Under the pieces are notes generated by a model that saw only the letters and a list, made by a program, of their open reading frames with translations, did no database searches and was not told the origin of the DNA. Below, in pieces: positions 10,550 to 24,976 of a stretch of DNA of 32,631 nt; position 1 is the stretch's first letter, and the number at the start of each line of letters is the position of its first letter. The position numbers were made by a program, and so were the translations under genes. Origin of the DNA: an uncultured Burkholderiales bacterium (GTDB lineage: Bacteria > Pseudomonadota > Gammaproteobacteria > Burkholderiales > Burkholderiaceae_C); NCBI GenBank assembly GCA_902825995.1, contig CADEDE010000025.1:1-32631 (forward strand), in the 5' to 3' direction.

Positions 10550-11618
10550 TCGAACCCTGGTGATCGCCGAGGCGGGTGTCAACCACAACGGTTCGCTCGA
10601 GCTGGCGCTACGCCTGGTCGATGTGGCCGCGGATGCGGGCGCCAATGTCGTGAAGTTCCAGACCTTCAAGGCCGAGCAGCTCGCCACCGCCAAGGCAGCC
10701 AAGGCCGAGTACCAGGTGGCGAACACCCAGGAGGCCGGTTCGCAGCTCGAGATGCTGCGCCGCCTCGAGCTTGCCCCGGCCGACCACGAAGCGCTGCTGG
10801 CGCGCTGCCGCGAACGTGGCATCCGCTTTCTGTCAACGGCCTTCGACGCCGAGAGCCTGTCCTTTCTGGCCACGCTGGACATGCCCGCGATCAAGATCCC
10901 GTCCGGCGACATCACCTGCGGACCGTTGCTGCTGCAGGCGGCGCGGCTGCGCCGGCCGCTGATCGTCTCGACCGGCATGTCCACGCTGGCCGACATCGAG
11001 CAGGCCCTGGGCGTGATCGCCTTCGGCCTGACCCAGGAACAAGAACCTTCCGGCCGCGCCGACTTCGACGCCGCCTATGCCAGCGACGAAGGCCGGGCGG
11101 CGCTGGTCCGCCACGTCACGCTATTGCATTGCGTGACCCAGTACCCGGCGCCCCCCGAGGCGGTCAACCTGCGCGCGATGGACACCATGGCGGCCGCGTT
11201 CGGCCTGCCGGTCGGGTACTCCGACCACACCGCAGGCATAGAAGTCTCGATCGCCGCAGTGGCGCGTGGCGCGCGGGTGATCGAAAAGCACTTCACGCTC
11301 GACCGCACGCTGCCCGGCCCTGACCACGCCGCATCGCTCGAGCCGAAGGAACTGGCACGAATGGTGACCTCGATCCGCAACGTCGAGCAGGCGCTCGGCT
11401 CGCCGATCAAGGCGCCGGCCGCGAGCGAGTCCGGCAACCGGCCGATCGCGCGGCGCAGCGTGGTAGCAGCACGGTCGATCCGCCGCGGCGAGACGCTTTC
11501 GGCCGACATGCTCACCAGCAAGCGGCCCGGCCTCGGCATCTCGCCGATGGACCTGTGGAGCCTGCTCGGCCGTCCGGCCGGACGCGACTACGCGCCCGAT
11601 GACGCAATCGAACCATGA
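10542..11618 (+). CDS. legI: Legionaminic acid synthase (LegI/NeuB family)
   Basis: A 358-residue condensing enzyme that joins phosphoenolpyruvate to the 6-deoxy mannosamine derivative to make the nine-carbon acid. EAGVNHNG (10-17), KFQTFKAEQL, KIPSGDITCGPLL, YSDHTAGIEVSIAAVARGARVIEKHFTLD and PGPDHAASLEP are the TIM-barrel landmarks. A C-terminal SAF domain (about 300-358, RRSVVAARSIRRGETLS) closes the neighbouring subunit's active site. The start is GTG 10542, with GGAG six bases before it inside the epimerase gene. The short insertion around residues 163-185 (TQEQEPSGRADFD) is typical of LegI-type synthases. Confidence 0.92.
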   Translation: MADRTLVIAEAGVNHNGSLELALRLVDVAADAGANVVKFQTFKAEQLATAKAAKAEYQVANTQEAGSQLEMLRRLELAPADHEALLARCRERGIRFLSTAFDAESLSFLATLDMPAIKIPSGDITCGPLLLQAARLRRPLIVSTGMSTLADIEQALGVIAFGLTQEQEPSGRADFDAAYASDEGRAALVRHVTLLHCVTQYPAPPEAVNLRAMDTMAAAFGLPVGYSDHTAGIEVSIAAVARGARVIEKHFTLDRTLPGPDHAASLEPKELARMVTSIRNVEQALGSPIKAPAASESGNRPIARRSVVAARSIRRGETLSADMLTSKRPGLGISPMDLWSLLGRPAGRDYAPDDAIEP

Positions 11619-12268
11619 CGCTGCCGATCATCATCGTCGGAGCCGGCGGGCATGCCATCGTGGTGGCGGACGCATTGCTGGCGGCGGGCGCGCGCGTGCT
11701 CGGCTTCACCGACGCCGACCCGGCTCGCCATGGCCGCACGCTCTGCGGCCTGCCGGTGCTCGGCGACGATCGGGTTTTGGACGGTCACACACCAGCGTCG
11801 GTGCAACTGGCCAATGGCATCGGCGGTGTCGGCAGCAGGCGCCGCGAACCGTTGCGCCGCAGCGTGCAGCAACGTCTCACAGCCGTTGGCTGGACCTTTG
11901 TGTCGGTACACCACCCGAGCGCAGTGGTGTCGCCGTTCGCACACGTGGGCGCAGGCGCGCAGCTACTCGCAGCGTGTGTCGTGCAGCCGGGCGCCCACGT
12001 GGGCGAGGGCTGCATCGTCAACACTGCGGCCGTGGTCGAGCATGACGTCACGCTGGACCCCTTTGTACACGTTGCACCGCGCGCGCTCGTCTGCGGCAGC
12101 GTCAGCGTCGGTGCGGACTGCCATCTTGGTGCGGGCGCTGTGGTACGCGAAGGCCTGCGTCTCGGCGCCGACACGGTGGTGGGTGCGGGCGCCGTGGTGA
12201 TTCGTGATTTTGGCGGAGGCGGCGTGCTGATCGGCGTGCCGGCCCGCCTGTTGGAACACAGCGCATGA
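11615..12268 (+). CDS. legH: NeuD/PglD-type acetyltransferase, likely LegH
   Basis: A 217-residue two-domain protein: an N-terminal Rossmann-like sugar-nucleotide domain (LPIIIVGAGGHAIVVADAL) and a C-terminal left-handed beta-helix (VHHPSAVVSPFAHVGAGAQL onward). The histidine in VVEHDVTLDPFVHVAP is the expected catalytic base. In legionaminic acid clusters this protein is usually LegH, which N-acetylates the 4-amino sugar from LegC. In sialic acid clusters the same family (NeuD) O-acetylates the finished acid. Position between legI and ptmE fits LegH. Stops and starts overlap by four bases on both sides. Confidence 0.83.
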   Translation: MTLPIIIVGAGGHAIVVADALLAAGARVLGFTDADPARHGRTLCGLPVLGDDRVLDGHTPASVQLANGIGGVGSRRREPLRRSVQQRLTAVGWTFVSVHHPSAVVSPFAHVGAGAQLLAACVVQPGAHVGEGCIVNTAAVVEHDVTLDPFVHVAPRALVCGSVSVGADCHLGAGAVVREGLRLGADTVVGAGAVVIRDFGGGGVLIGVPARLLEHSA

Positions 12269-13314
12269 AGAATTGGGAACAGGCCCTGGTCGGGCCGCAC
12301 ACAAGCCTGCGCGAGGCGTTGGAGACGATCGACCGCGCGGGCTGCCAGATCGCCTTGGTGGTCGGTACCGACCGCCGCCTGCTCGGCACGCTCAGCGACG
12401 GTGATGCGCGACGCGGGCTGCTCAGGGGCCTGAACCTCGGCGACCGGGTCGAGGCAGCGATGCACAAGTCCCCGACCTTCGCGCGGGCTGGGGAGGCGCA
12501 CCATTCCATTCTCGGGACGATGCGCCGGCTCGGCCTGCACCAGATCCCGGTGCTCGATGCGGCGGGTATCGTGATCGGCCTCGAGACCGTTGACGACTAC
12601 CTCGCCACTCCGGCGCGCGAACACTGGGTCGTGATCATGGCGGGCGGCCTGGGCACCCGGCTCGAAGATCTCACGCGCGACACGCCCAAGCCGATGCTCA
12701 AGATCGGTGCCCGCCCGCTGCTCGAAACGATCGTGCGCAGCTACGCCGAGCAGGGCTTTCGTCGCTTCTACTTCGCGGTCAACTACAAGTCCGAGCAGAT
12801 CGAGGCGCACTTCGGAGACGGCAGCGCGCTGGGCGTCGATATCCGCTATCTGCGCGAGCAGACACGCCTGGGCACTGCCGGTCCCCTGAGCATGTTGCCG
12901 GAGCGGCCCACGCTGCCCGTCGTCGTCACCAACGCCGACCTGCTGACCAAGGAAGACTACGGCCGCATGGTCGACCTCCACGTCGAGGCCGGCGCCGACG
13001 CAACGATGGCCGTGCGCGACTACGAGATGCAGGTGCCCTTCGGCGTCGTACGCGAACGCGACGGTCGCATCGAGGCGATCGAGGAGAAGCCGGTGCAGCG
13101 CTTCGTCGTCAGCGCCGGCATGTACGTGTTGTCGCCGCAAGCGCTGGACCTGGTGCCGCGCAACGAGTTCTTCGACATGCCGTCGCTGTTTGGGGCCATG
13201 GTCGAACGCGGCATGCGCACGCGTTGCCACGCCATCGACGGCTACTGGCTCGACATCGGCCGCCTGCCCGACTTCGAGCGCGCCAACATGGATTTCAACG
13301 AGGTGTTCCGGTGA
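12265..13314 (+). CDS. ptmE: PtmE-like sugar-1-phosphate nucleotidyltransferase with CBS domains
   Basis: A 349-residue fusion. Residues about 1-115 are a CBS pair (QIALVVGTDRRLLGTLSDGDARRGLL, then HQIPVLDAAGIVIGLE). Residues 120-349 are a nucleotidyltransferase with the loop IMAGGLGTRLEDLTRDTPKPMLKIG and VTNADLLTKEDY for metal binding. In Campylobacter, PtmE makes GDP-glucosamine from glucosamine-1-phosphate, feeding a GDP-linked legionaminic acid route. Its presence here is the best clue that LegB, LegC and LegH act on GDP- rather than UDP-sugars. The CBS pair is probably regulatory. It overlaps legF by GTGA. Confidence 0.87.
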   Translation: MKNWEQALVGPHTSLREALETIDRAGCQIALVVGTDRRLLGTLSDGDARRGLLRGLNLGDRVEAAMHKSPTFARAGEAHHSILGTMRRLGLHQIPVLDAAGIVIGLETVDDYLATPAREHWVVIMAGGLGTRLEDLTRDTPKPMLKIGARPLLETIVRSYAEQGFRRFYFAVNYKSEQIEAHFGDGSALGVDIRYLREQTRLGTAGPLSMLPERPTLPVVVTNADLLTKEDYGRMVDLHVEAGADATMAVRDYEMQVPFGVVRERDGRIEAIEEKPVQRFVVSAGMYVLSPQALDLVPRNEFFDMPSLFGAMVERGMRTRCHAIDGYWLDIGRLPDFERANMDFNEVFR

Positions 13315-14006
13315 TCGGGACGCGCAAAATCCTCGCGCTGATCCCGGCGCGGGGCGGCTCCAAAGGCCTGCCAGGCAAGAACACTCTGCCGGTCGCCGGC
13401 CGGCCACTGCTCGCCTGGAGCGTGGACGCAGCGCGTGCAGCACGCAGCGTCGACCGGGTCGTGTTGTCGTCCGACGACGACGCCATCATGGCCGCGGCGC
13501 GAGCTTGCGGTTGCGAAGTGCCGTTCGTGCGGCCCGCGGCACTGGGCAGCGACACCGCAACCACGATCGACGTGGTGATGCATGCGCTCGACGCGTTGCC
13601 CGGCTACGACCTGATCGTGCTGCTGCAACCCACCTCACCGCTTCGCACTGCGGCCGACATCGATGCCGCTTGCGAGCGCCTCGCATCCAGCGGCGCGCCG
13701 GCCTGCGTGTCGGTCAGTCCGGTCGATCAGAGCCCGTACTGGATGTACCGCCTCGGCGACAATCAAGGCCTCGTGCCGGTCGTCGAGACCCCGCCGGGTG
13801 TCACGCGGCGCCAGGATCTGCCGGCGGTCTACACACTGAACGGCGCCGTCTACGTGGCCGACATCGCGTGGTTGCGCCAGACACGCACATTCGTCACGCG
13901 CGAGACGGTGGCACATCTGATGCCCGCCGAACGATCCATCGACATCGACACCATTGCGGACTTCGCGGCCTTCGAGAAGTCCATCACCGAGAACGACCAT
14001 GCTTAA
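13311..14006 (+). CDS. legF: CMP-legionaminic acid synthetase (LegF/NeuA family)
   Basis: A 231-residue cytidylyltransferase that activates the nonulosonic acid with CTP. It carries IPARGGSKGLPGKN (12-24) and LLQPTSPLRTAADIDAA. Further along are ARERLASS-like helices, TRRQDLPAVYTLNGAVYVAD and the late DIDTIADF. The GTG start at 13311 overlaps the ptmE stop; the frame continues upstream only as read-through of ptmE. It overlaps the next gene by eight bases. Substrate choice between CMP-Leg and CMP-Neu5Ac rests on the surrounding leg genes. Confidence 0.88.
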   Translation: MIGTRKILALIPARGGSKGLPGKNTLPVAGRPLLAWSVDAARAARSVDRVVLSSDDDAIMAAARACGCEVPFVRPAALGSDTATTIDVVMHALDALPGYDLIVLLQPTSPLRTAADIDAACERLASSGAPACVSVSPVDQSPYWMYRLGDNQGLVPVVETPPGVTRRQDLPAVYTLNGAVYVADIAWLRQTRTFVTRETVAHLMPAERSIDIDTIADFAAFEKSITENDHA

Positions 14007-15315
14007 GTACCTTCGCCGCCGCGACATCGAGCTCGCCCCGTTCCGCAAGGACATCCCGGACAGCACACGCTACGGCTTGCCGCTGCAAGTGGGTTTCTGC
14101 AAGCGCTGCGTCATCTCGAACCAGCGTCCAAACTCGGCAGTCGAGTACGCACACACCAAGGACAGCAAGAAGGTAACGATCAACTTTGATGCCGACGGTG
14201 TCTGCGACGCCTGCCGCATGGCCGAACAGAAGCATGGAAGCATCGACTGGACCGAGCGCGAGCGACTGCTGCGCGAGTTGTGCGATCAGCACCGAAGCAA
14301 TGACGGCTCCTATGACTGCGTCGTGCCCGGCTCGGGAGGCAAGGACAGTTTCTACGCCGCGCACGTGCTCAAGTACAAGTACGGCATGCACCCGCTTACG
14401 GTGACATGGGCGCCGCATATCTACACCGAATGGGGTTGGCGCAACTTTCAAGCCTGGTTGCACGCGGGCTTCGACAACTTCCTATGCACGCCCAACGGCC
14501 GCGTGCATCGGCTCGTGACCCGTCTCGCGGTGGAAAATCTGTTCCACCCCTTTCAACCCTTTATCTTCGGCCAGAAGGCATTGGCGCCGAAGATGGCGGT
14601 GTTGCACAAGATCCCGCTCGTGTTCTACGGCGAGAACGAGGCCGAGTACGGCAACCCGATCGCTGACACGCAATCGGCCAAGCGGGATTGGTCGTACTTC
14701 ACGTCCGATGACAAATCGAAGATCTACCTCGGTGGCACGTCGGTGGCCGACCTGCAGGAACACTTCGGCGTCGATGCCCATGAACTGCAACCCTACCTGC
14801 CCGCCAACCCCGACGAGATCGAGCGCCAGAAGGTCGAGGTGCACTACCTCGGCTATTACCTGAAGTGGCACCCGCAGAGCTGCTACTACTACTCTGTCGA
14901 GCACGGCGGCTTCCAGGCCTCACCCGAACGCACACCGGGCACCTACAGCAAGTACAACAGCATCGACGACCGGATCGACGATTTTCATTACTACACCACA
15001 TTCATCAAGTTCGGCATCGGCCGCGCAACCTACGATGCAGCGCAGGAGATCCGTTCGGGCGACATCACACGCGACGAAGGCGTGGCGCTGGCACGGCGCT
15101 TCGACGGCGAGTTCCCCGAGCGTTTCGCCGAAGAGGTGTTCCGCTACCTCAGCATCCCGGAGAAGGAGTTCCCGCAGGCCTCGAAGATGTTCGAGCAGCC
15201 GCTGATGGATCGGGCCTACTTCGACAACCTGGCCGACTCGTTCCGCTCGCCGCACCTGTGGAAATACGAACACGGCGAATGGAAGCTGCGCCATGCGGTG
15301 TGGCACGGGGACTGA
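13999..15315 (+). CDS. N-acetyl sugar amidotransferase (first triad)
   Basis: A 438-residue PP-loop enzyme of the WbuX/PseA/WbpG group, which turns an acetamido group into acetamidino using ammonia from a HisH/HisF pair. C34 and C37 (CKRC) with C69 and C72 (CDAC) form a zinc site. SGGKDS (112-117) is the ATP-pyrophosphatase loop, here preceded by PG. EFFG-type motifs are replaced by FYGENEAEYGNP. It is about 65 residues longer than the second copy in this window. It directly follows legF, and HisF- and HisH-like genes come next, so its likely substrate is legionaminic acid or CMP-legionaminic acid. ATG 13999 overlaps the legF stop. Confidence 0.87.
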   Translation: MLKYLRRRDIELAPFRKDIPDSTRYGLPLQVGFCKRCVISNQRPNSAVEYAHTKDSKKVTINFDADGVCDACRMAEQKHGSIDWTERERLLRELCDQHRSNDGSYDCVVPGSGGKDSFYAAHVLKYKYGMHPLTVTWAPHIYTEWGWRNFQAWLHAGFDNFLCTPNGRVHRLVTRLAVENLFHPFQPFIFGQKALAPKMAVLHKIPLVFYGENEAEYGNPIADTQSAKRDWSYFTSDDKSKIYLGGTSVADLQEHFGVDAHELQPYLPANPDEIERQKVEVHYLGYYLKWHPQSCYYYSVEHGGFQASPERTPGTYSKYNSIDDRIDDFHYYTTFIKFGIGRATYDAAQEIRSGDITRDEGVALARRFDGEFPERFAEEVFRYLSIPEKEFPQASKMFEQPLMDRAYFDNLADSFRSPHLWKYEHGEWKLRHAVWHGD

Positions 15316-15318
15316 CCG

Positions 15319-16080
15319 ATGGCCAACGTGCGGCTGATCGCGCGGCTCGACATCAAGGGGCCCAACCTGATCAAAGGGGTGCATCTCGAAGGCCTGCGTG
15401 TCGTCGGTGATCCGCAGGAGTACGCACGCCGCTACTACGAGCAGGGTATCGACGAACTGATCTACATCGACATCGTCGCCAGCCTGTACGGGCGCAGCAA
15501 GCTGACCGAGATCGTGCGCCGCGCGGCGCACGACGTCTTCGTGCCGATGACGGTGGGTGGCGGCGTGCGGAATGTCGATGACGTGCGCGATCTGCTGCGC
15601 GCCGGCGCCGACAAGGTGGCGATCAACACCGCCGCGGTGCGGCGCCCAGAACTCGTCACCGAGGTCTCGCGCCGATTCGGTTCGCAATGCATGATGCTGT
15701 CGATCGAGGCCAAGCAGCAGGCCCCGGGCCGCTGGGAGGTCTTCACCGACTGCGGCCGCGAGCGCTCGGGTGTCGATGCGGTCGAGTGGGCCCGGCGCGG
15801 CGTGGCGCTGGGCGCCGGCGAGATCCTCGTCACTTCGATCGACCGCGAGGGCACGCGCAAGGGCTTCGACCTCGCGCTGACCCGCGCGATCGCCTCGGCT
15901 GTCACGGTGCCGGTGATCGCCAGCGGCGGCTATGGCGAACCGCAAGACCTAACGGACGTCGTGCTCGAGGGGACGGCGAATGCCGTCGCCTTCGCCGATG
16001 CCCTGCACTACCAGCGCACGACGCTTGCCGAACTGCGCGCCCACGCCCGGTCCGCCGGCATCCCGGTGAGATCGGTGTGA
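15319..16080 (+). CDS. hisF: HisF-like cyclase subunit homologue of amidotransferase triad 1
   Basis: A 253-residue TIM barrel with the HisF phosphate-binding glycines (TVGGGVRNVDDV; VIASGGYGEP). True HisF uses D11 and D130 to form imidazole glycerol phosphate. Here D11 is kept (RLDIKG) but position 130 is glutamate (SIEAKQ). With the HisH-like gene next and the amidotransferase before, it most likely channels ammonia to the PP-loop enzyme and does not serve histidine synthesis. It starts three bases after the preceding stop. Confidence 0.88.
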   Translation: MANVRLIARLDIKGPNLIKGVHLEGLRVVGDPQEYARRYYEQGIDELIYIDIVASLYGRSKLTEIVRRAAHDVFVPMTVGGGVRNVDDVRDLLRAGADKVAINTAAVRRPELVTEVSRRFGSQCMMLSIEAKQQAPGRWEVFTDCGRERSGVDAVEWARRGVALGAGEILVTSIDREGTRKGFDLALTRAIASAVTVPVIASGGYGEPQDLTDVVLEGTANAVAFADALHYQRTTLAELRAHARSAGIPVRSV

Positions 16081-16085
16081 ATCGC

Positions 16086-16724
16086 ATGCAGGTCACGGTC
16101 ATCGACTACGGCATCGGCAACCTCTTCAGCGTGGGCCGCGCGCTCGAGCATTGCGGTGCCGAGGTCACGTTCACCAGCGACCCGGCACTCATCGCGAGGG
16201 CGCCGCGGCTCGTGCTGCCCGGTGTGGGCGCGTTCGCCGACGGCATGAAGGGCCTCCGCGAGCGCGCCCTGGCCGAGCCGATCCGCCGCTACGCCGCGTC
16301 GGGGCGGCCCCTGCTGGGCATCTGCCTGGGCATGCAGATGCTCGCCACGGCCAGCAACGAGTTCGGTGAACACGAGGGACTCGGGCTGATCCCGGGGCGT
16401 GTCGTCGCGGTTCCCGATCACACGACCTCAGGCATGCCGCACAAGATCCCGCACATCGGGTGGAACGGGTTGCAGGCCCCTGCAGGCGTCTCGTGGAACG
16501 AAACCCTGCTGGGCGACACCCCCGAGGGCACCGCTGTCTACCTGGTGCATTCCTACGCCGTCACCCCCGACGACGACCCGGCCCACCGCCTCGCCGACTG
16601 TCTCTACGGCGGCCATCGCATCTGCGCAGCCATCCGGCGCGGCAACATCGTCGGCTGCCAGTTCCACCCTGAGAAGAGCGGTGCAGCGGGGCTGCGCATT
16701 CTGCGGCGCTTCATCGCCGGCTGA
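16086..16724 (+). CDS. hisH: HisH-like glutamine amidotransferase of triad 1
   Basis: A 212-residue class I glutaminase that releases ammonia from glutamine. The triad is intact: C80 in GICLGMQML and H194/E196 in FHPEKSG. VIDYGIGNLFSVGRALE at the N-terminus and PHIGWNGL are HisH landmarks. ATG 16086 is used, but GTG 16077, three codons upstream, overlaps the HisF-like stop as GTGA, has GGTGAG six bases before it, and may be the real start. It works with the preceding two genes. Confidence 0.88.
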   Translation: MQVTVIDYGIGNLFSVGRALEHCGAEVTFTSDPALIARAPRLVLPGVGAFADGMKGLRERALAEPIRRYAASGRPLLGICLGMQMLATASNEFGEHEGLGLIPGRVVAVPDHTTSGMPHKIPHIGWNGLQAPAGVSWNETLLGDTPEGTAVYLVHSYAVTPDDDPAHRLADCLYGGHRICAAIRRGNIVGCQFHPEKSGAAGLRILRRFIAG

Positions 16725-16756
16725 ATGCCCCTTTTGCGCCGCGAACCCGTCCCAAA

Positions 16757-18046
16757 ATGAGCTTGAGTCTCCTGCGCGCCGGTGCCATCTACGGGCTCGC
16801 CAATGCACTGTCCGCAGCGGTTCCCTTTCTTCTGCTGCCGATCCTCACGCGAGCGCTTCCGCCGCAGGACTACGGCGTCGTCGTCGGCTTCTTCCTGCTC
16901 GTCAGCGTCAGCACCTCGTTGGCCGGGTTGAACGTGCACAGCGCGGTCTCGGTCAAGTGGTTCGACCGCGACAAGGTCGAATTCCCCAGCTACGTCGGAT
17001 CGGCCCTGGTCCTTGCGGTGGGGAGCACTGCGCTGTGCGCAGCTCTGTTGCTGGTCGCAGGTACGCTGTGGCATGTCAGGTTCGGACTGGCAGTGTGGCT
17101 GTGGCCGCTCGCGGCGTTGCTTGCTGGCACGACCGTCGTGGCCGGGTTGCGCACGACCTTGTGGCAAAGCCAGCTGAGGGCTCTGCCGTCGGCGACGTTC
17201 CAGGTGATTGCGGCATCAATCAACATGGGCCTGTCGCTGATCGCCGTGCTGCTTCTGGGCCTCGGTGCAGAAGGCCGCGTGGCGGGGGCGGTGCTCGCCT
17301 CGCTGCTGGCAGCTGTCGCAGCGGTCCTCCTGCTGCGCGCATCGGGCGATTCGGTCTGGGCATGTTCGGCTCAGGACGTCCGTCGCCTTCTGCGATTCGG
17401 CGTGCCCCTCATTCCCCATGCGCTGGCCGGCGCGCTGCTGGCGTTGGCGGACCGCTTCACCGTGTCGGCGCGCCTCGGGACAGATGCGCTCGGCATCTAC
17501 GGTGCGGCGGCGCAGCTCGGGATGGTGATGAACGTGCTTGGCGACACGCTGGTCAAGGCAGTGTCGCCGTGGATGTACGCCCAGATGTCAGGACGCTTCG
17601 GCGGCGGACGCTTGCGCGTCGTCGGGGCCACGTACGTGCTGCTCCCGGCGTGGATCCTGGTTGCTGTGCTCTTGTGGTTGCTGCTGACCGTCGTCGGGCC
17701 AGCCCTCCTGGGCGAGCGTTACCAGGCCGCCATAGGCTTGTCGCTCTGGTTCCTGCTCGGCGGGGCAATGTCGTCGATCTACCTCAACATCGCCGGGTTG
17801 TTCTTCTTCACGGCCCGCAACGAATGGCTGAGCGCAGCGACCGTCAGTTCCGCGGTGCTTGCCGTCGTCATGGCCTCGATCCTGACAGCTCGCTATGGCC
17901 TGAGCGGCGCCGCCGCGGCTTACCTCTGCGCGCAAACCGCTCAGCTGGTGCTTTCGTGGCTGCTGTCCCAGCGTATCCAGCCCATGCCCTGGCACCGGCC
18001 GGCACTGGCACTGCGCACCCTGAGTCGCTCGTGGAGGAGGCGCTGA
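16757..18046 (+). CDS. wzx: Wzx-type lipid-linked oligosaccharide flippase
   Basis: A 429-residue polytopic inner-membrane protein of the MATE/MVF superfamily with about twelve hydrophobic segments. The start LLRAGAIYGLANALSAAVPF and LLPILTRALPPQDYGVV is the classic Wzx signature. A second half-repeat begins near FGVPLIPHALAGALLALADR, which contains the conserved DR. It would move undecaprenyl-linked repeat units to the periplasmic face. It follows the first amidotransferase triad after 32 bases, the largest gap for some distance. Confidence 0.9.
   Translation: MSLSLLRAGAIYGLANALSAAVPFLLLPILTRALPPQDYGVVVGFFLLVSVSTSLAGLNVHSAVSVKWFDRDKVEFPSYVGSALVLAVGSTALCAALLLVAGTLWHVRFGLAVWLWPLAALLAGTTVVAGLRTTLWQSQLRALPSATFQVIAASINMGLSLIAVLLLGLGAEGRVAGAVLASLLAAVAAVLLLRASGDSVWACSAQDVRRLLRFGVPLIPHALAGALLALADRFTVSARLGTDALGIYGAAAQLGMVMNVLGDTLVKAVSPWMYAQMSGRFGGGRLRVVGATYVLLPAWILVAVLLWLLLTVVGPALLGERYQAAIGLSLWFLLGGAMSSIYLNIAGLFFFTARNEWLSAATVSSAVLAVVMASILTARYGLSGAAAAYLCAQTAQLVLSWLLSQRIQPMPWHRPALALRTLSRSWRRR
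18033..18040 (+). promoter_or_regulatory. Strong ribosome binding site inside the end of wzx
   Basis: GGAGGAGG lies eight bases before ATG 18049 and also encodes the terminal arginines of Wzx. It is much stronger than most initiation sites in this locus, so the acetyltransferase may be made in excess of its neighbours. Confidence 0.6.
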
Positions 18047-18048
18047 CC

Positions 18049-18558
18049 ATGGGATGGCAGCTCCTGGCGGGCCTGCTCATGCGCTTGCGCGCGGTCTACT
18101 GGCGCGTGATCTACCGCAGCCTGCGCTCGCGCTACAGAGTCGACGCCGAATTCCGGTTCAACGGCGTCGGAATCCAGTTGTATGGAGATGGGTCGATCGA
18201 GCTGGGCGCGGAAAGCTACATCGGTGAGCTGTCCACGATCCAGGCGTGCGCCGGCCACCGGGTGCGCGTGGGCCGCCGCTGCAGCATCTCGCACAACGTG
18301 CGGATTTACACGGAGACGTCCGACGCCGATTGCGATTTCCGCGCCGGCGAGGATCGGCCAATACGAGCCAGCGTCGACATCGGCGACGGCGTCTGGATCG
18401 GAACGAACGTATTCATCGGCCCGGGCATCGCAATCGGCGACAACGCGGTGATCGGCGCCAACGCCGTAGTGACCCGCAACGTTCCCAACGGCGAAATCTG
18501 GGGGGGCGTGCCGGCAAAGTTCATCCGCTCGAAACGCGTGGAGGGCCAGCCTAGATGA
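18049..18558 (+). CDS. Hexapeptide-repeat O-acetyltransferase
   Basis: A 169-residue acyltransferase. A short hydrophobic, basic N-terminus (WQLLAGLLMRLRAVYWRVIYRSLRSRYR) precedes a left-handed beta-helix: IELGAESYIGELSTIQACAG, VRVGRRCSISHNVRIYTE, then VDIGDGVWIGTNVFIGPGIAIGDNAVIGANAVVTRNVPNGEIWGGVPAKFI. The last block is typical of maltose/galactoside-acetyltransferase-like enzymes that modify polysaccharides. The acceptor sugar cannot be told. It overlaps the next gene by four bases. Confidence 0.83.
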   Translation: MGWQLLAGLLMRLRAVYWRVIYRSLRSRYRVDAEFRFNGVGIQLYGDGSIELGAESYIGELSTIQACAGHRVRVGRRCSISHNVRIYTETSDADCDFRAGEDRPIRASVDIGDGVWIGTNVFIGPGIAIGDNAVIGANAVVTRNVPNGEIWGGVPAKFIRSKRVEGQPR

Positions 18559-20144
18559 TGCGGGTGGAGCATGGCTGGCATTCCGGTGTCATCGCGACAA
18601 CCATTGCTGACGCACGCCCGCACTCATCGGACCTGATGGCCGCGCTCGCGCACCTCGAATCGAACTTCGGCGTCTGCGCATGGCAAGTCGCAGGCATCCC
18701 GCTTTGGCCGCTGTTGCGCATCCGCTGGTTCTTCGCCGAATGGGCACGCCACTATGCCGCCCCCACCGGTCACGCGACGCAGCGCGGGATGGCTGGCCTC
18801 GTCAAGGGCATACTGAACGGTGCCCGTGCCGCGGCACGGGTGCGCCACGACGATGCACCCGGCAACGACCGGATGGCGACGCCTCGGGATCTGGTGTTCC
18901 TGTCAGACGGACTGTCCTTTGCCCGCCTGGGCGAACGATGGGCAGAGCGCTTCTGCGATCCGATCATCGCCAGCGCGGCGCAGCGCGGCCTGACCAACGC
19001 GCTGTGGACGCCATTGCACAATTACCATCAGCCGCGCCTGACGCCGTCAGTGCTCCTGCAGCCCGCCATCGATCGTGCGAATCTCGCGGGTGCCTTGAGG
19101 GGACGATTCGCACCACGCGATCTCCAGTTGCCCGATCACCGTGGCGCGCTCGACTGGCTCGCTGCGGCAGGCTTTGGCACCGCGGCGTTGCAAGCGGTGA
19201 AAATCCACTCCGATGGCGGCCGTTTGCATTCGGTTGCCTCCGCGTACCGACGTCGGCTCGCCAAAACCAGTCCGCGGCTGGCCTTCGTGGTGAGCTACTA
19301 CAGCCTCGAAGGCATGGCGTTTGTCTATGCCTGCCGCGAACTCGGTATACCGGTGGTCGACCTTCAACACGGTGTGCAGGGTGAATTCCACCCGGCCTAC
19401 GCGGCCTGGCCGAAGCCGGAGGAAGGCCGGCGACATGCCCTCCTGCCGGACCACTTCTGGGTCTGGTCGGATTGGGAACGCAAGGTGATCGAGGGTTGGA
19501 GCGCAAGTACCGGCCATTCGGCGGTCGTCGGCGGCAATCCCTGGCTGGGCGTGTGGCAACCCGGCTCGGCATGGTCGGGTGTCGCACCCGCCTTGGAGGC
19601 GGCGCGCCGGATGCGCGAGCGCGCCGACGGGCGCCCCGTGGTCCTGGTGACGCTGCAATTCGGGCTCGCCCCGGCGGAGCAGCTCGAGCCGCTGTGCCGC
19701 CTGATGGCCGAGGCCGGCGACCGCATGGTGCTCTGGGTGCGATTGCATCCGGCAATGCTGGAGCGCCGGGAGGAGGTCCGGGCGCGGCTGGATGTCGGCA
19801 TCCGGTTCGAACTCGACGGGTGCACGGACTTGCCCCTGCACGCCCTGCTGCCCGCCGTCGACGTGCACATGACCCACAGCTCCAGCACCGTCATCGAAGC
19901 GGCGCAGTTCGGCGTGCCCTCCGTGCTCACCACGTCCTATGGTGCCGAACTCTTCGCGCCGCTGTTGGGCACCGGATCGGCCGTTCTGGAAACAGGCGGC
20001 CCGGCCCAGCTCGCATCTACACTTATCCATTTGGTCGACACCCGTCGCGGCACCGTGGCGGCCAGGGATCCGGGGAGCGGCGGGGCAGCGCTCGATGCGT
20101 TGCTCAGCGGCGCTCCTTCGCATGTATGTCGGAGGACAGCTTGA
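18555..20144 (+). CDS. GT-B-like protein, candidate nonulosonic acid transferase
   Basis: A 529-residue soluble protein with no clear family by eye. Visible features suggest a GT-B fold. VFLSDGLSFARLGERWAE begins a Rossmann-like half, and VVSYYSLEGMAFVYACRELGIPVVDLQHG (Q271-H272-G273) resembles capsule-type transferases. VLWVRLHPAM contains an HP pair (H398-P399), and MTHSSSTVIEAAQFGVPSVLT has S442-S444 followed by E448. An HP pair followed by an S-rich motif is seen in several bacterial sialyltransferase families, where it binds CMP. With CMP-legionaminate made in this locus and no other transferase for it visible, transfer of legionaminic acid is a reasonable inference only. The ATG overlaps the acetyltransferase stop. 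Confidence 0.55.
   Translation: MMRVEHGWHSGVIATTIADARPHSSDLMAALAHLESNFGVCAWQVAGIPLWPLLRIRWFFAEWARHYAAPTGHATQRGMAGLVKGILNGARAAARVRHDDAPGNDRMATPRDLVFLSDGLSFARLGERWAERFCDPIIASAAQRGLTNALWTPLHNYHQPRLTPSVLLQPAIDRANLAGALRGRFAPRDLQLPDHRGALDWLAAAGFGTAALQAVKIHSDGGRLHSVASAYRRRLAKTSPRLAFVVSYYSLEGMAFVYACRELGIPVVDLQHGVQGEFHPAYAAWPKPEEGRRHALLPDHFWVWSDWERKVIEGWSASTGHSAVVGGNPWLGVWQPGSAWSGVAPALEAARRMRERADGRPVVLVTLQFGLAPAEQLEPLCRLMAEAGDRMVLWVRLHPAMLERREEVRARLDVGIRFELDGCTDLPLHALLPAVDVHMTHSSSTVIEAAQFGVPSVLTTSYGAELFAPLLGTGSAVLETGGPAQLASTLIHLVDTRRGTVAARDPGSGGAALDALLSGAPSHVCRRTA
20131..20136 (+). promoter_or_regulatory. Ribosome binding site that favours a TTG start for the second hisH-like gene
   Basis: GGAGGA lies four bases before TTG 20141. 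That TTG forms a TTGA overlap with the stop of the preceding gene and gives a protein beginning ITIVDYGVGN, as in most HisH proteins. An upstream ATG at 20126 lacks a comparable site, since this GGAGGA lies downstream of it. Confidence 0.6.
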
Positions 20145-20752
20145 TCACGATCGTCGACTACGGCGTGGGCAACCTCGGCTCGATCCGCAACATGCTTAAG
20201 AAGATCGGCGTCGACTCGGAAATCACGTCGGACGCTGTCCGCATCACCGCCGCCACCAAGCTCATCCTTCCCGGCGTCGGTGCGTTTGACGCCGGGATGG
20301 AGAGCCTCGAGCGGAGCGGCCTGATCCCGGTGCTCGGCGAACGCGTACTGGGCGCCCGGGTGCCGGTCCTGGGCATCTGCCTGGGCATGCAGCTGATGAC
20401 GCACGGCAGCACCGAGGGCATGCGTCGGGGCCTGGGCTGGATCGACGCGCAGGCGCTGCGCCTCCAGCCCACCGATGCGGCGCTGAAAGTCCCGCACATG
20501 GGCTGGAACCTGGTGCGTCCGGTGCGCGAGGCCGCGCTCGTGGACGCACTGCCGGAAGAACCGCGCTTCTACTTCGTGCACTCGTACTGCATCCGGTGCG
20601 AGCGGCCGGAGGACGTGCTGCTGACCACCACCTATGGCGAGCCTTTCCACAGTGGCTTCCACCGAGGCAACGTCTGGGGCGTTCAGTTCCACCCCGAGAA
20701 GAGTCACAAGTTCGGCATGCACCTGTTGCGCAACTTCGCGCAGCGCTGCTGA
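20141..20752 (+). CDS. hisH: HisH-like glutamine amidotransferase of triad 2
   Basis: A 203-residue glutaminase counted from TTG 20141 (208 from ATG 20126). The catalytic triad is intact: C80 in GICLGMQLM, H184 and E186 in QFHPEKSH. VPHMGWNLV and VHSYCIRC are family landmarks. It supplies ammonia to the HisF-like protein that follows, and then to the amidotransferase at 22644. It is clearly diverged from the HisH-like protein at 16086, so the two sets are not a recent duplication. Confidence 0.88.
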   Translation: MITIVDYGVGNLGSIRNMLKKIGVDSEITSDAVRITAATKLILPGVGAFDAGMESLERSGLIPVLGERVLGARVPVLGICLGMQLMTHGSTEGMRRGLGWIDAQALRLQPTDAALKVPHMGWNLVRPVREAALVDALPEEPRFYFVHSYCIRCERPEDVLLTTTYGEPFHSGFHRGNVWGVQFHPEKSHKFGMHLLRNFAQRC

Positions 20753-20754
20753 CC

Positions 20755-21516
20755 ATGCTGAAGACCCGCGTCATCCCCTGCCTGCTGCTGCGCGGCGCGG
20801 GCCTCGTCAAGACAGTGCGCTTCAAGAATCCGAAGTACATCGGCGACCCGATCAACGCGATCAAGATTTTCAACGACAAGGAAGTCGACGAACTGGTGCT
20901 GCTCGACATCAGCGCCTCGAAGGAGAACCGCGGGCCTTCGTTTTCGGTCATCGAGGAGGTGGCGAGCGAATGTTTCATGCCGCTGGCCTACGGTGGCGGC
21001 ATCCGCACGGTCGAGCAGGCGCGCCGTATCTTCAAGCTCGGCGTCGAGAAGGTCGTCTTCAACACGACCGCTTGGCGCGAGCCCGCGGTGTTGCGCGACG
21101 CCTCGAGCGAGTTCGGCGCCCAGGCCGTGGTGGCATCGATCGACGTGCGCCGCAGGCTGTTCGGCCGCTACGAGGTCTGCGTCGAGGGCGGCACCCGTGC
21201 GACGGGCATTGATCCGGTCGAGTATGCGCAGCGCATGGAGGCGGCCGGCGCCGGAGAGATCTTCCTGACCTCGATCGACCGCGACGGCACGATGCAGGGG
21301 TACGAACTCGAATTGCTGGCCAAGGTCACCGCGGCGGTCGGCATCCCGGTGATCGCCTCGGGCGGGGCCGGATCGGTGAGCGACTTTGGTGCCGCGATCC
21401 GCGAGGGCGGCGCGGCGGCCGTCGCGGCAGGTGCGATGTTCGTGTTCCACGGGCCGCACCGGGCCGTGCTGATCACGTATTCGCCGCGCGGAGAACTCGA
21501 GAAGGTGTTGGCATGA
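20755..21516 (+). CDS. hisF: HisF-like cyclase subunit homologue of amidotransferase triad 2
   Basis: A 253-residue TIM barrel with phosphate-site glycines in AYGGGIRTVEQA and VIASGGAGSVSDF. The cyclase residue D11 of true HisF is leucine here (PCLLLRG), while D130 is kept (SIDVRR). This is the reverse of the HisF-like protein at 15319. Loss of D11 makes imidazole glycerol phosphate synthesis very unlikely and fits an ammonia-channel role as in WbpG/HisF2/HisH2 systems. It begins two bases after the HisH-like gene and overlaps the next start by ATGA. Confidence 0.9.
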   Translation: MLKTRVIPCLLLRGAGLVKTVRFKNPKYIGDPINAIKIFNDKEVDELVLLDISASKENRGPSFSVIEEVASECFMPLAYGGGIRTVEQARRIFKLGVEKVVFNTTAWREPAVLRDASSEFGAQAVVASIDVRRRLFGRYEVCVEGGTRATGIDPVEYAQRMEAAGAGEIFLTSIDRDGTMQGYELELLAKVTAAVGIPVIASGGAGSVSDFGAAIREGGAAAVAAGAMFVFHGPHRAVLITYSPRGELEKVLA

Positions 21517-22634
21517 GGGCCCGCAGAATGCGTCGAGCCCCTGCGGTGGCGCTGGTGGTGGCTCTTGCGCTGCTTGGCGCGCTGTTCCTGTCCATGGTGG
21601 GCATCGACGCGCTCGAAGGCAAGAACGACTTCCAGTTCTTTGCCGACTCGCCGACATACCACGAAGCGGCCCGGGGCGGCTTGGGCCACGTCGAGACCTT
21701 GGCGGACATGGTGGGCGTGGCCGCCAACTTTCTCGGCCCACTGGTCCTGCTGCAACTGGCGGGTGAAAACTACTACGCGATCCTGGCATTGAATGCCTTG
21801 CTGCTGGCCTTTGGCGTGACGAGTCTGGCGCGATCGCTGCGGCTGGACGCGCTCAAGCTGTTGCTCGTGCTGCTCGTGAACCCGATGACGATTTCGAGCC
21901 TGCTGTCGGTCAACAAGGAAATCATCTCGCTGGTCTTCGTCGCCCTGCTGGTGCGCGCCCACGCAGTGGGCTCGATCGGCGCGCTGCTCCTGGCCGCCGT
22001 CGTGTCGGTGCTGGTGCGGTGGCAACTGACGATGGTGCTGATCGCCGCCAGCATGATGGTCGGCGCGGTGAATCCGCTGCGCCAGCACCGGCGCGCGACC
22101 CTGCTGCTCCTGCTGGCAGCGTTGTCGGTGGTTTACGTGCAGTTGGCCGCGACCCTGGAGCCGATCCGGATCAACTTCGAGGATGCCGCCGAAAGCTACG
22201 AAGGGTCCGGCTTCTACGAGAAGCTGGTTTCACTGCAGGACAGCGGCTGGTATTGGGCAATCTTCCCGGTCAAGGCGGCCCACCTGCTGTTCGGCATGGG
22301 CCTGCGGCTGGACCGCCTGTTCAACCCGACGAATGCCTACAACGACTTCTGGCAGCTGCTGCACTCGACCACGCTGCTGCTGCTCTTCGTCGCGCTGCTG
22401 CGTGCCCGGCGATTCAGGCTCGGCAACGACCTCGTCTATCTGAGCCTGATCTACGTGGCTGTGTTCGCGATCACGCCGATCTACACGCCCCGCTACTTCT
22501 ACCCGGTGTATGTGTTGTGGGCCGCGGCGTTGTGTACGCCGGATCGTTTGTCCGCCGTGTTCGGCGTGCGCCGGCTACGGCGCCGCGTCAAACCCGAACC
22601 ACGGATCGTCGCTGGCCCTGTTCCCGGTATTTGA
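21513..22634 (+). CDS. Polytopic membrane protein, candidate Wzy polymerase
   Basis: A 373-residue protein with about nine or ten hydrophobic segments. It starts with a basic N-terminus and a TM helix (VALVVALALLGALFLSMVG), followed by a polar stretch with DFQFFADSPTYHEAA. A conserved-looking VNKEIISLVFVALLVRAH follows. A larger polar loop (INFEDAAESYEGSGFYEKLV) lies before the last helices, and the end is TPIYTPRYFYPVYVLWAAAL. No family was recognised. O-antigen polymerases are highly divergent membrane proteins with one or two large loops, and no other Wzy candidate lies in the window, so this role is inferred. A lipid-carrier glycosyltransferase is the alternative. It separates hisF from the second amidotransferase gene. 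Confidence 0.55.
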   Translation: MRARRMRRAPAVALVVALALLGALFLSMVGIDALEGKNDFQFFADSPTYHEAARGGLGHVETLADMVGVAANFLGPLVLLQLAGENYYAILALNALLLAFGVTSLARSLRLDALKLLLVLLVNPMTISSLLSVNKEIISLVFVALLVRAHAVGSIGALLLAAVVSVLVRWQLTMVLIAASMMVGAVNPLRQHRRATLLLLLAALSVVYVQLAATLEPIRINFEDAAESYEGSGFYEKLVSLQDSGWYWAIFPVKAAHLLFGMGLRLDRLFNPTNAYNDFWQLLHSTTLLLLFVALLRARRFRLGNDLVYLSLIYVAVFAITPIYTPRYFYPVYVLWAAALCTPDRLSAVFGVRRLRRRVKPEPRIVAGPVPGI

Positions 22635-22643
22635 ATCGATCCA

Positions 22644-23759
22644 ATGACCGCCCGCCAGACCTGCACCCGCTGCATCATGGACACCAGCGACCCCGACATC
22701 GTCTTCGACGCTGCCGGGATCTGCAACCACTGCCATCGCTATGAGCGTGTCTCGCGCGAGCGCCTGATCCCGGTGGCCGAGCGCCGCCAGCACCTCGAAG
22801 CGCTCGTCGCCGAGATTCGCCGCTCCGGTCAGGGCAGGCCGTACGACTGCGTCATCGGCGTCAGCGGCGGCGTCGACAGCACCTACGTCGCCTGGCTGGT
22901 GAAGGACCTCGGGCTGCGCCCGCTCGCCGTGCACCTGGACAACGGCTGGAACTCCGAACTGGCCGTCGCCAACATCGAGAAGACGCTGAAGGTTCTGGGC
23001 ATCGACCTCTACACCCACGTGATCGACTGGGAGGAGTTCCGCGACCTGCAGGTCTCCTTCCTGAAGGCCTCCACCCCCGACGGCGAAGTGCCGACCGACC
23101 ACGCGATCTTCGCGCTGCTCTACCGGATGGCCGCAAAGAACGGCATCCGCCACGTCATCACCGGCACCAACGTCGCCACCGAGGCGGTGCTGCCCGAGAA
23201 GTGGGGCTACGGCTACTTCGACTGGCGCTACGTGAAGGACGTGCACCGCCGCTTCGGCACACAGCGGCTCACGACCTACCCGCACTTCTCGCTGGCGGGG
23301 CTCTTCTACTACGTGTTCCTGCGCCGCATCCGCATGGTTTCGATCCTGAACCACATCGAATACGACAAGGCGCAGGCGATGCAACTGCTTCAGGAAAAGC
23401 TCGGCTGGGTCTACTACGGCGGCAAGCACTACGAGTCGATCTACACGCGCTTCTTCCAGGCCTACGTGCTGCCGCGAAAGTTCGACATCGACAAGCGCAA
23501 GGCCCACTGCTCGACACTGATCTGCTCGGGCCAGATGACACGCGAGCAGGCGCTCGAGGCGATGCAGGAACCGGTCTTCCCAGAACGTGCGCTGCTCGAA
23601 GACCGCGACTACAGCATCAAGAAGCTCGGGCTGACGAACGAGCAATTCGAGCAGATCATGGCCGCACCGACCCAGACCTTCTTCGACTACCGCACCAGCC
23701 ACGGCCTGTTCGAGACTGCCAAGAAGATGGTGAACGCCGGGCGCAGGTCTATCGGATGA
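22644..23759 (+). CDS. wbpG: N-acetyl sugar amidotransferase, WbpG-like (second triad)
   Basis: A 371-residue PP-loop enzyme. C7/C10 (CTRC) and C27/C30 (CNHC) form the zinc site; SGGVDS at 74-79 binds ATP. HLDNGWNSELAVANIEK, TGTNVATEAVLPEKWGYGYFDW and GWVYYGGKHYESIYTRFFQAY are typical of WbpG/PseA proteins. In Pseudomonas aeruginosa O5, WbpG with HisH2/HisF2 makes the 3-acetamidino group of the diaminouronic acid. Here the wbpB/D/E-like genes make the equivalent precursor, so this copy may serve that sugar. It starts nine bases after the membrane protein gene. Confidence 0.9.
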   Translation: MTARQTCTRCIMDTSDPDIVFDAAGICNHCHRYERVSRERLIPVAERRQHLEALVAEIRRSGQGRPYDCVIGVSGGVDSTYVAWLVKDLGLRPLAVHLDNGWNSELAVANIEKTLKVLGIDLYTHVIDWEEFRDLQVSFLKASTPDGEVPTDHAIFALLYRMAAKNGIRHVITGTNVATEAVLPEKWGYGYFDWRYVKDVHRRFGTQRLTTYPHFSLAGLFYYVFLRRIRMVSILNHIEYDKAQAMQLLQEKLGWVYYGGKHYESIYTRFFQAYVLPRKFDIDKRKAHCSTLICSGQMTREQALEAMQEPVFPERALLEDRDYSIKKLGLTNEQFEQIMAAPTQTFFDYRTSHGLFETAKKMVNAGRRSIG

Positions 23760-24976
23760 GGCCGCTGCGCGTGCTCTATCTGCACATGATCGGCCCGTTC
23801 GGCGGCGCCTCGCGCAGCCTGTTCGAGGCGATCCGCGCCTTCCCGCCCGGCGCCGTGCAGCCGCGCTTCGTGACGCAACGCGGCAGCGTGACCGGCTTCT
23901 TCTCGCGCCTGGGGGAGGTGGTCGAATCGCGCGGCATGAGCCAGTTCGACAACACCCGCTACAGCCACTACCGCGGCACACGCTGGCTGGTGCTGCTGCG
24001 CGAGCTGGCCTACCTGCCCTTCACGGTGGTAGCGCTGCGCCGCGCGCGCCGGCGTTGGGGTGAGGTCGACCTGATCCACCTGAACGAGTTCACCGGGCTC
24101 GTCCCGCTCTGGCTCGCGCGCCGCATTTTCGGTGTGCCCGCGGTGGTGCACGTGCGCTCGGTGGCGCACGATGACACACGCTCGTGGCGCACGCGCTGGG
24201 TCCACCGCATGCTGCGCCGCGAGGCGCGCGCCGTCATCGCGATCGACGAGAACGTGCGCGCCAGCCTGCCCGCGAACCTGCCGGTCGAGGTCATCCACAA
24301 CGCCTTCTCGCCCAAGGAGGCGACCGGTGCGGACGAGGCCTTCGAGCGCCGCCTGCAGGTGCTGCGGCCAGAGTCGTTCAAGGTCGGGTTCGTCGGCAAC
24401 CTGCTGCTCGTCAAGGGCATCCACGAGTTGGTCGAGGCGGCACGCATCACGCGCGAGCGCGGCCTGGACGTGGAGTTCATCATCGTCGGCGACGATGTCC
24501 AGCCGTCGCGCGGCCTGAAGGCTCGCGTGGTCAAGGCGCTCGGACTGGCGCAGAACGTGCGCACCGAGGTCGAGGCGGCCCTCGACCGCCATGCGCTGCG
24601 CGACCGGGTTCACCTGGTGGGCTTCACGGCCGAGATTGCGCGCGCCTACCGCCACATGGACGTGCTGTGTTTTCCGTCCCACTACGACGCGCCGGGGCGG
24701 CCGATCTTCGAAGCCGCGTTCTTCGGCGTGCCCAGCATCGTGGCGGTGCGCGAGCCGCGCGCCGACACGCTGGTCCACGGCGAGACGGGCCTGGCGATCG
24801 CGCCGCGTTCCGCCGACCAACTCGCCGCGGCGATCGAGCGCATGGCCACCGACCGCAATGCGACGCGCCGCATGGGCGACGCGGCGCGCCAGATGGCCGA
24901 GCACAACTTCAGCGTGCAACGCAACGCGAGCCGGCTGCTGGGCGTCTACCGCCAGGTCACCGGCCAGGCGGCATGA
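23756..24976 (+). CDS. GT4-family glycosyltransferase
   Basis: A 406-residue GT-B transferase. The acceptor domain begins RVLYLHMIGPFGGASRSLFE, with a glycine-rich loop, and contains VDLIHLNEFTGLVPLWLARR. The donor domain has FKVGFVGNLLLVKGIHELVEAA and FPSHYDAPGRPIFEAAFFGVPSIV. The usual GT4 E-x7-E is D311-x7-E319 here, a conservative change. It would act on the cytoplasmic face to extend the lipid-linked repeat unit; donor and acceptor are not predictable. The ATG overlaps the amidotransferase stop, and the next gene starts eight bases later. Confidence 0.88.
   Translation: MRPLRVLYLHMIGPFGGASRSLFEAIRAFPPGAVQPRFVTQRGSVTGFFSRLGEVVESRGMSQFDNTRYSHYRGTRWLVLLRELAYLPFTVVALRRARRRWGEVDLIHLNEFTGLVPLWLARRIFGVPAVVHVRSVAHDDTRSWRTRWVHRMLRREARAVIAIDENVRASLPANLPVEVIHNAFSPKEATGADEAFERRLQVLRPESFKVGFVGNLLLVKGIHELVEAARITRERGLDVEFIIVGDDVQPSRGLKARVVKALGLAQNVRTEVEAALDRHALRDRVHLVGFTAEIARAYRHMDVLCFPSHYDAPGRPIFEAAFFGVPSIVAVREPRADTLVHGETGLAIAPRSADQLAAAIERMATDRNATRRMGDAARQMAEHNFSVQRNASRLLGVYRQVTGQAA

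Follow-up and report, generated by a model that had tools for sequence, protein, structure and literature searches.

Here we describe a polysaccharide locus of an uncultured Burkholderiales bacterium that contains two complete sets of putative sugar-amidination genes. The window, by which we mean the whole stretch of DNA that was analysed, is the complete contig C25 and has 32,631 bases; the assembly to which it belongs amounts to 2.82 Mb. Each set is a triad of a zinc/PP-loop amidotransferase of the WbuX family (N-acetyl sugar amidotransferases, NASATs, TIGR03573; here WbuX1 and WbuX2), a HisH-like glutaminase and a HisF-like barrel. Both triads lie within 13999-23759, in the orders WbuX1-HisF1-HisH1 (set 1) and HisH2-HisF2-membrane protein-WbuX2 (set 2). 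A sequence-only reading of this stretch had reported this content and arrangement, and profile scores, motifs and open frames bear it out. Going by sequence comparison, we consider it fairly probable that the locus directs the synthesis of a Wzx/Wzy-type surface polysaccharide, and that each triad is dedicated to amidinating one of two different acidic sugars within the same repeat unit. Loci of this class recur in other bacteria, and no description of the class was found in the open-access literature; nor did that literature, outside which most carbohydrate-structure journals lie, yield a description of two amidinated sugars in one repeat unit.

In both sets HisH would release ammonia from glutamine, and the HisF barrel, its synthase role lost, would conduct it to the amidotransferase. 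There, ATP would activate the carbonyl of an N-acetyl group and its oxygen would be swapped for ammonia, leaving an acetamidino group; ATP use by NASAT enzymes is itself a proposal made from the 8WEX structure (PMC10607449). Set 1 would convert CMP-Leg5Ac7Ac to CMP-Leg5Am7Ac ahead of polymerisation, and set 2 would amidinate the 3-acetamido group of a UDP-2,3-diacetamido-2,3-dideoxyuronic acid made by WbpB, WbpE and WbpD. This second sugar could have the gluco configuration or, given an epimerase from elsewhere, the manno configuration, and the glycosyltransferase (GT) adjoining WbuX2 would transfer it. By analogy with the Campylobacter route, we infer that the nucleotide sugars are modified before transfer. 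Both triads probably serve a single repeat unit, as had been proposed, because one flippase and one polymerase candidate were found in the window.

The two triads and their relatives

An NCBIfam profile search and a frame check found all six frames uninterrupted. The amidotransferases show both NASAT motifs described in PMC10607449, the SGGXDS PP-loop (SGGKDS and SGGVDS) and the tetracysteine motif (two CxxC pairs in each), and the catalytic Cys/His/Glu residues are intact in HisH1 and HisH2. With six open frames and active-site residues in place, the idea that one set has decayed was rejected. WbuX1 and WbuX2 are the only TIGR03573 matches in the whole genome, and both could be related to the 8WEX fold, WbuX1 through its identity to that protein and WbuX2 through a predicted model. 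The AlphaFold2 model of WbuX2 (predicted local distance difference test score, pLDDT, 90.4) has 8WEX as its best PDB match (template modelling score, TM, 0.66; ranks 1 and 2).

Sequence comparison supports the claim that set 1 goes with legionaminic acid. WbuX1 is identical to the Legionella pneumophila NASAT (LpNASAT, 8WEX) at 329 of 430 residues (76.5%). The 8WEX structure has a disordered lid of about 15 residues that is reportedly absent from other family members (PMC10607449). WbuX1 has this type of lid insertion, with a cysteine-to-cysteine span of 39, a value shared by 22 of 30 Leg-clade rows and by none of 87 others (six of the 87 could not be measured). In a tree of 116 of our 117 rows, from which the short row L074 was absent, WbuX1 falls in a 31-row Leg clade with a Shimodaira-Hasegawa approximate likelihood ratio test (SH-aLRT) support of 99, and 24 of the 31 carry the leg label. 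HisF1-type barrels occur at 25 of 28 Leg-clade loci and at 0 of 70 other loci; in this count and in that of lid spans one gene of genome G702 is counted twice, as rows L030 and L031 overlap. Moreover, matches to the LegB, LegC, NeuC, NeuB and NeuD models all exceed their cut-offs in the window. In Campylobacter jejuni, ptmG is responsible for converting CMP-Leg5Ac7Ac to CMP-Leg5Am7Ac, and open reading frame (ORF) 28 of the Legionella lipopolysaccharide genes is its homologue (PMC3766260) and possibly encodes the 8WEX protein.

Some Leg-clade loci differ in their make-up. In L019 (6912-8240, 11603-12829) and in L029 (8810-10126, 10137-11303) a Leg-clade amidotransferase with the long lid (span 39) is joined by a second Leg-clade enzyme that lacks it (span 24), and the two perhaps amidinate N5 and N7 of one legionaminic acid. 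L015, from a genome of the same genus as the window (G003), matches the window in gene order from the nucleotidyltransferase to WbuX2, except for the membrane protein. Its WbuX1 is only 48% identical and belongs to a lidless Leg subclade, whilst its HisF1 and HisH1 are 70% and 68% identical, which suggests that the amidotransferase was exchanged without its partners.

The two barrels have lost different residues at Asp11 and Asp130, which we take to be the catalytic aspartates of the imidazole glycerol phosphate synthase HisF. HisF1 retains Asp11 and has Glu in place of Asp130, HisF2 has Leu in place of Asp11 and retains Asp130, and the true HisF of the genome has both. This holds across their relatives. 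Of 38 HisF1-type proteins (at least 50% identity), 34 have Asp11/Glu130, three have Gln130 and one, the genome's own true HisF, has both aspartates; Leu11 and Asp130 are found in 66 of 68 HisF2-type proteins and in 49 of 61 more distant HisF2-like ones. Arg5, Glu46, Lys99 and Glu168, presumably the ammonia-gate positions, are invariant in both close groups. Because the two types lost different synthase residues, the comparison suggests that HisF was recruited separately twice as an ammonia duct.

Set 2 belongs to another part of the WbuX family. The longest inner branch of the 116-row tree separates a WbpG-like clade A (38 rows, including WbuX2) from a 78-row clade, in which the nonulosonate-linked enzymes are placed. 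When 78 named loci were added (duplicates L152 and L190 excluded), WbuX2 fell in a 20-row clade (SH-aLRT 100) with records named Rubrivivax, Burkholderiaceae, Hoeflea, Bradyrhizobium, Devosia, Rhizobium, Aurantimonas, Steroidobacter and Vogesella, among others. A separate 22-row clade holds 8 of 9 Fnl-only rows and 8 of 11 rows with only the alcohol dehydrogenase (ADH)/Gfo-Idh fusion. These are quick trees with SH-aLRT support and no bootstrap, and Pseudomonas aeruginosa WbpG and Escherichia coli WbuX are not among the rows. One clade member, L145, is a 3.9 kb contig of an Armatimonadetes metagenome-assembled genome (MAG) whose WbuX2 sits beside two Bradyrhizobium sequences on a branch of 0.04, and is perhaps misbinned.

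Recurrence of the pairing

A second TIGR03573 protein lies on the WbuX2 contig in 18 of the 18 WbuX2-clade genomes searched (18 of the 20 clade members, leaving out L145 and L150), at 2.7-15.0 kb (median 9.5 kb). In 16 of these the partner is at least 54% identical to WbuX1, or is WbuX1 itself. The other two partners are each about 30% identical to it: that of G798, a genome with two further matches, stands beside leg genes, and that of G799, whose WbuX2 is 78% identical to the window's, lies in a Pse-like setting. The pairing in G062 and G785 was known when the queries were built, and therefore a fair count was restricted to newly found genomes. It gave the pairing in 15 of 15, as against a Leg-clade partner in 4 of the 31 other clade-A census genomes (Fisher p = 7.6e-9), although the 15 are not independent, since four Rhizobium-type loci and two Hoeflea loci are closely interrelated and one Bradyrhizobium is closely akin to G785. 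Outside the WbuX2 clade the pairing also occurs in G003, G283, G099 and G702; the WbuX2 there is of other lineages, and the WbuX1 of several. Also among the 31, G454 carries a long-branched extra WbuX copy 4.4 kb away.

Across the census of about 798 genomes (a total that is inferred), 34 have a WbpG-like enzyme, 28 a Leg-clade enzyme and 7 both, as assigned by score thresholds (p = 8.4e-5); with the window and a sister genome removed, 5 have both (p = 0.0027). Matches weaker than 1e-40 fall outside the census, and weak or partial second matches in G015 and G040 were excluded.

The sequence-only reading had known of no comparable locus, but the pairing is not an isolated case; it is widespread, among distant relatives too. 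Homologues of WbpB, WbpD and WbpE were seen together in 16 of the 18 paired clade genomes. We lean slightly towards a wider account, in which horizontally spread proteobacterial surface-polysaccharide loci would combine, in their repeat units, a 5-acetamidino nonulosonate with a 3-acetamidino diamino-uronic acid, each with its own triad, one WbpG lineage would be tied to the pairing and the HisF barrels would have been disarmed independently.

A different arrangement was seen in five genomes (L023-L027), whose Pse-like loci have two amidotransferases around a single HisH/HisF pair. This suggests that the two enzymes share one ammonia source.

The substrate of set 2 and alternative readings

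The claim that set 2 goes with a diamino-uronic acid made by WbpB, WbpD and WbpE is likewise favoured by comparison. A WbpB homologue with 63% or more identity occurs in 17 of the 18 clade genomes, always sharing a contig with WbuX2, at a distance of 5.9-18.2 kb; G798 has a WbpB paralogue of 46% only, 24.6 kb away. At 22 Leg-clade census loci where no WbuX2 was in view, WbpB was never found with WbpD; these views, however, spanned about 20 kb at most, less than those of the paired loci, and L031, one of the 22, is a piece of the paired genome G702. The window WbpB scores 324.8 bits against PDB 3q2k and 313.9 bits against 3q2i, both of which we take to be WlbA, and 95 bits against the next structure. 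The acetyltransferase in the WbpD position had no PDB match at 1e-15.

Linkage to wbpBDE was rejected as proof of the substrate, because fnlABC genes adjoin WbuX2 in many relatives and published repeats combine GlcNAc3NAcylA with FucNAm or GalNAmA. Therefore, whole genomes were searched for FnlA, namely those of 12 WbuX2-clade members and G283 (13 in all). Scores of 567-650 bits, all below the model cut-off of 730, were obtained in 7 of the 12 clade genomes. No fnlA-grade match was found in the window genome (where the top score, 121.3 bits, fell in a frame of 836 amino acids), G785 (130.9), G802 (132.5), G798 (249.6) or G799 (239.7), and thus L-FucNAc is not the set-2 substrate in all clade genomes. 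As regards a FnlABC-based FucNAm system, the window genome yielded no fnlA-grade gene, FnlB not having been searched for genome-wide. Nor can HisF2 separate ManNAc3NAmA from FucNAm through its NF038364 match, because it exceeds the cut-off of the WbuZ model too. Since a fnlA-grade gene is missing from five clade genomes, that of the window included, the WbpB/D/E diacetamido-uronic acid appears the likeliest set-2 substrate in the window.

Several results weigh against two amidinated acidic sugars in one repeat unit. Genes resembling fnlA occur in 13 of the 18 WbuX2-clade genomes (7 by profile search, 6 more by tblastn), so that L-FucNAc genes, too, often accompany WbuX2. In known polymers that bear GlcNAc3NAcylA the amidine is on another sugar, FucNAm or GalNAmA (PMC3210612). 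Seven of the 31 Leg-clade rows miss the leg label (L015, L037, L045, L079, L080, L081 and L087; several are on short contigs). Among the 88 WbuX-bearing census genomes, having a WbpG-type enzyme does not make a Leg-clade enzyme more likely (odds ratio 0.41, p = 0.10); co-occurrence by genome is thus weak evidence, and the strong statement on pairing is confined to the WbuX2 clade rather than extended to the families at large. Moreover, the window contains no WbpA-type UDP-GlcNAc 6-dehydrogenase, the enzyme at 3127-4482 being of the UDP-glucose type, and no WbpI 2-epimerase, since TIGR00236 matches there are to LegG only (79 bits).

WbpB requires UDP-GlcNAcA, as established for WlbA. With neither a WbpA-type enzyme nor WbpI in the window, UDP-GlcNAcA and any manno epimer would have to come from elsewhere, for example from contig C51. 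This contig encodes a TviB-type dehydrogenase that scores 483.9 bits (cut-off 592) and has no PDB counterpart at 1e-60, a TviC-type epimerase (404.7 bits, cut-off 760) and a WecB-type epimerase, itself a TIGR00236 match, for which PDB 8sxv (278.5 bits) and 4neq (277.4 bits) nearly tie, so that a UDP-diacetamidoglucuronate 2-epimerase and a UDP-GlcNAc 2-epimerase are its best structures. All three enzymes lie in an XrtA/exosortase-type exopolysaccharide locus (L128, 1147-14151). A gluco or a manno set-2 sugar is possible.

The alternative that survives best keeps set 1 on legionaminic acid and has set 2 act on a different sugar, either L-FucNAc, from which we take E. coli WbuX to make FucNAm, or whatever sugar the ADH/Gfo-Idh module at 26114-28264 makes. 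It fits with fnlABC standing beside WbuX2 in many close relatives, and the ADH/Gfo-Idh module is found in clade-A loci without wbpBDE in view as well as in two of the closest WbuX2 relatives, a Rubrivivax and a Burkholderiaceae MAG. However, the five genomes without a fnlA-grade match, the presence of WbpB in 17 of 18 clade genomes and the placing of 8 of 9 Fnl-only rows in a separate clade argue against it, and we regard it as unlikely, if still to be reckoned with.

It is a good deal less probable that the sets serve two separate glycans, or that one set is silent. The genome does have a second polysaccharide locus, that of XrtA type on C51, but one flippase and one polymerase candidate were found in the window, all six frames are open with their active-site residues, and the two amidotransferases lie within 15 kb of each other in all 18 clade genomes. 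We give marginally less credence still to both triads acting on N5 and N7 of one nonulosonate, with the diamino-uronic acid fully acetylated. Double modification is suggested for L023-L027 by their amidotransferase pairs around a single HisH/HisF. Against it in the window, WbuX2 lies across the longest inner branch from the nonulosonate-linked clade, WbpB tracks WbuX2 and not WbuX1, and WbuX2 stayed 78% identical in G799, where the partner switched from a Leg-type to a Pse-like setting. Finally, that HisF1 and HisH1 are extra histidine-synthesis genes outside amidination can be set aside almost entirely: HisF1 does share 52% of its residues with the true HisF of the genome and reaches 280.6 bits against the hisF model, but this is below the cut-off, its Asp130 is replaced, true HisF and HisH are encoded elsewhere, and HisF1-type barrels are confined to Leg-clade loci in the counts above.

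The locus in context

The polysaccharide genes, at 3127-31171, are all on the + strand (Table 1). Beyond the listed features, an acetyltransferase lies between the flippase and the GT-B-fold protein, and the locus ends, beyond the GT4 next to WbuX2, with genes for two oxidoreductases and a heparinase-like protein, followed by a second GT4.

Table 1. Features of the polysaccharide locus, with the profile or structure evidence for each.
Feature	Position	Strand	Evidence
UDP-glucose 6-dehydrogenase type	3127..4482	+	best PDB 2y0e, 653.6 bits; TuaD 499.9 (cut-off 700); TviB 77.5
WbpB/WlbA-type 3-dehydrogenase	4479..5537	+	best PDB 3q2k, 324.8 bits
Acetyltransferase, WbpD position	5542..6042	+	hexapeptide repeats
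Aminotransferase, WbpE position	6039..7169	+	PDB 2oga 342.5 bits, above WbpE structure 3nyu (260.8 bits)
LegB 4,6-dehydratase	7166..8176	+	TIGR04180 533 bits (cut-off 475)
LegC aminotransferase	8188..9378	+	TIGR04181 528.2 bits (cut-off 420)
LegG/NeuC-type hydrolysing 2-epimerase	9383..10549	+	TIGR03568 448.2 bits (cut-off 235.9)
LegI/NeuB-type nonulosonate synthase	10542..11618	+	TIGR03569 478.1 bits (cut-off 399.65)
NeuD/LegH-type acetyltransferase	11615..12268	+	TIGR03570 213.1 bits (cut-off 160.8)
Nucleotidyltransferase	12265..13314	+	profile search
CMP-nonulosonate synthase, legF position	13311..14006	+	PseF best model, 150.7 bits (below cut-off 205.7)
WbuX1 amidotransferase, legionaminic type	13999..15315	+	TIGR03573 403.3 bits (cut-off 203.2)
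HisF1, putative ammonia-channel barrel	15319..16080	+	slightly below both WbuZ 281.8 (cut-off 299.7) and hisF 280.6 (cut-off 294.55)
HisH1 glutaminase	16077..16724	+	TIGR01855 193.5 bits (above cut-off)
Flippase (Wzx)	16757..18046	+	PF01943 65.2 bits
GT-B-fold protein	18555..20144	+	predicted structure (pLDDT 80.0), with GT-B epimerases and transferases as its Foldseek matches
HisH2 glutaminase	20126..20752	+	TIGR01855 226.9 bits (above cut-off)
HisF2, AglZ/HisF2 type	20755..21516	+	NF038364 364.9 (cut-off 310); WbuZ 306.8 (cut-off 299.7)
Membrane protein, Wzy polymerase candidate	21513..22634	+	8 hydrophobic stretches
WbuX2 amidotransferase, WbpG type	22644..23759	+	TIGR03573 308.1 bits (cut-off 203.2)
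GT4-type glycosyltransferase	23756..24976	+	directly 3' of WbuX2

The ATG of WbuX1 overlaps the 3' end of the legF-position gene by 8 bases, and we take the nucleotidyltransferase to be PtmE-like. A homologue of the GT4 adjoining WbuX2 lies within 2.1 kb of WbuX2 at all 19 WbuX2-clade loci measured, and thus this GT4 is likely the transferase of the set-2 sugar. The GT-B-fold protein had no family match in profile searches; LHP and HSS motifs are present in its nearest relatives, and it may, tentatively, be a candidate nonulosonate transferase. The membrane protein had no Pfam match, and a membrane-type frame occupies the same slot in 8 of 18 other WbuX2-clade loci.

At 26114-31171 lie the ADH/Gfo-Idh fusion, the heparinase-like protein and the last GT4. 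The fusion, partly together with the other two, is also found near other WbpG-like genes (e.g. L059, L060, L062, L083, L104 and L215). Upstream, a MarR-type regulator of the exopolysaccharide (EPS)-associated family TIGR04176 (2610-3071; 134.9 bits, above cut-off) immediately precedes the polysaccharide genes. Pieces of gmd (GDP-mannose 4,6-dehydratase; model positions 1-88, 166-253 and 286-339) at 1692-2610 lie in different frames, so that this gene is apparently broken. The locus is flanked at 1226-1651 and 31446-31766 by a PIN-domain VapC-like protein and an HTH_37 protein, possibly toxin-antitoxin remnants. Elsewhere in the genome, contig C21 carries the true HisF, with both synthase aspartates, and C4 a HisA-like gene adjoining a HisH.

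Set 1 resembles the Leg5Am7Ac pathway of Legionella and Campylobacter (PtmG; LpNASAT 8WEX): its amidotransferase has the lid and is accompanied by leg genes, HisH and HisF. The Legionella product is a homopolymer of legionaminic acid (PMC3766260), whereas the window locus adds wbpBDE and a second triad. Set 2 resembles P. aeruginosa WbpG/HisH2/HisF2 (ManNAc3NAmA) in its WbpB homologue and putative WbpD and WbpE homologues, AglZ/HisF2-type barrel and WbpG-type amidotransferase. A further system for comparison is that of Methanococcus maripaludis MMP1081, presumably AglXYZ. It shares the same likenesses (PMC2952790). Unlike both of these systems, the window has no WbpA or WbpI, and WbuX2 belongs to a clade of its own with a nonulosonate-type partner in 18 of 18 genomes. 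E. coli O145 WbuX/WbuY/WbuZ (L-FucNAm; PMC10607449) is of the same protein families, but the window genome has no fnlA-grade gene and 8 of 9 Fnl-only rows fall in another clade. Vibrio vulnificus genomes likewise combine a diamino-uronic route (UDP-ManNAc3NAmA) with a nonulosonate route (CMP-Pse5Ac7Ac) (PMC11676643), and several NASATs per genome are already in print, with three listed for V. vulnificus and two for Campylobacter (PMC10607449); no two-triad amidination locus is described in the portions of these two papers that bear on such genomes.

Taken together, the earlier interpretation of this locus is largely right as far as sequence can tell, and unproven at the level of the sugars. 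Amidines are rare positive charges on bacterial glycans, and a recurrent locus with two triads would be expected to yield polymers whose two acidic sugars each have their carboxylate offset by an amidinium. Such an offset could alter how metals, cationic peptides, phages and host lectins bind. Moreover, the fingerprints described here (lid span 39; HisF D11/E130 versus L11/D130), combined with the clades, may serve as a simple predictor of whether a given amidination triad goes with legionaminic acid or some other sugar.

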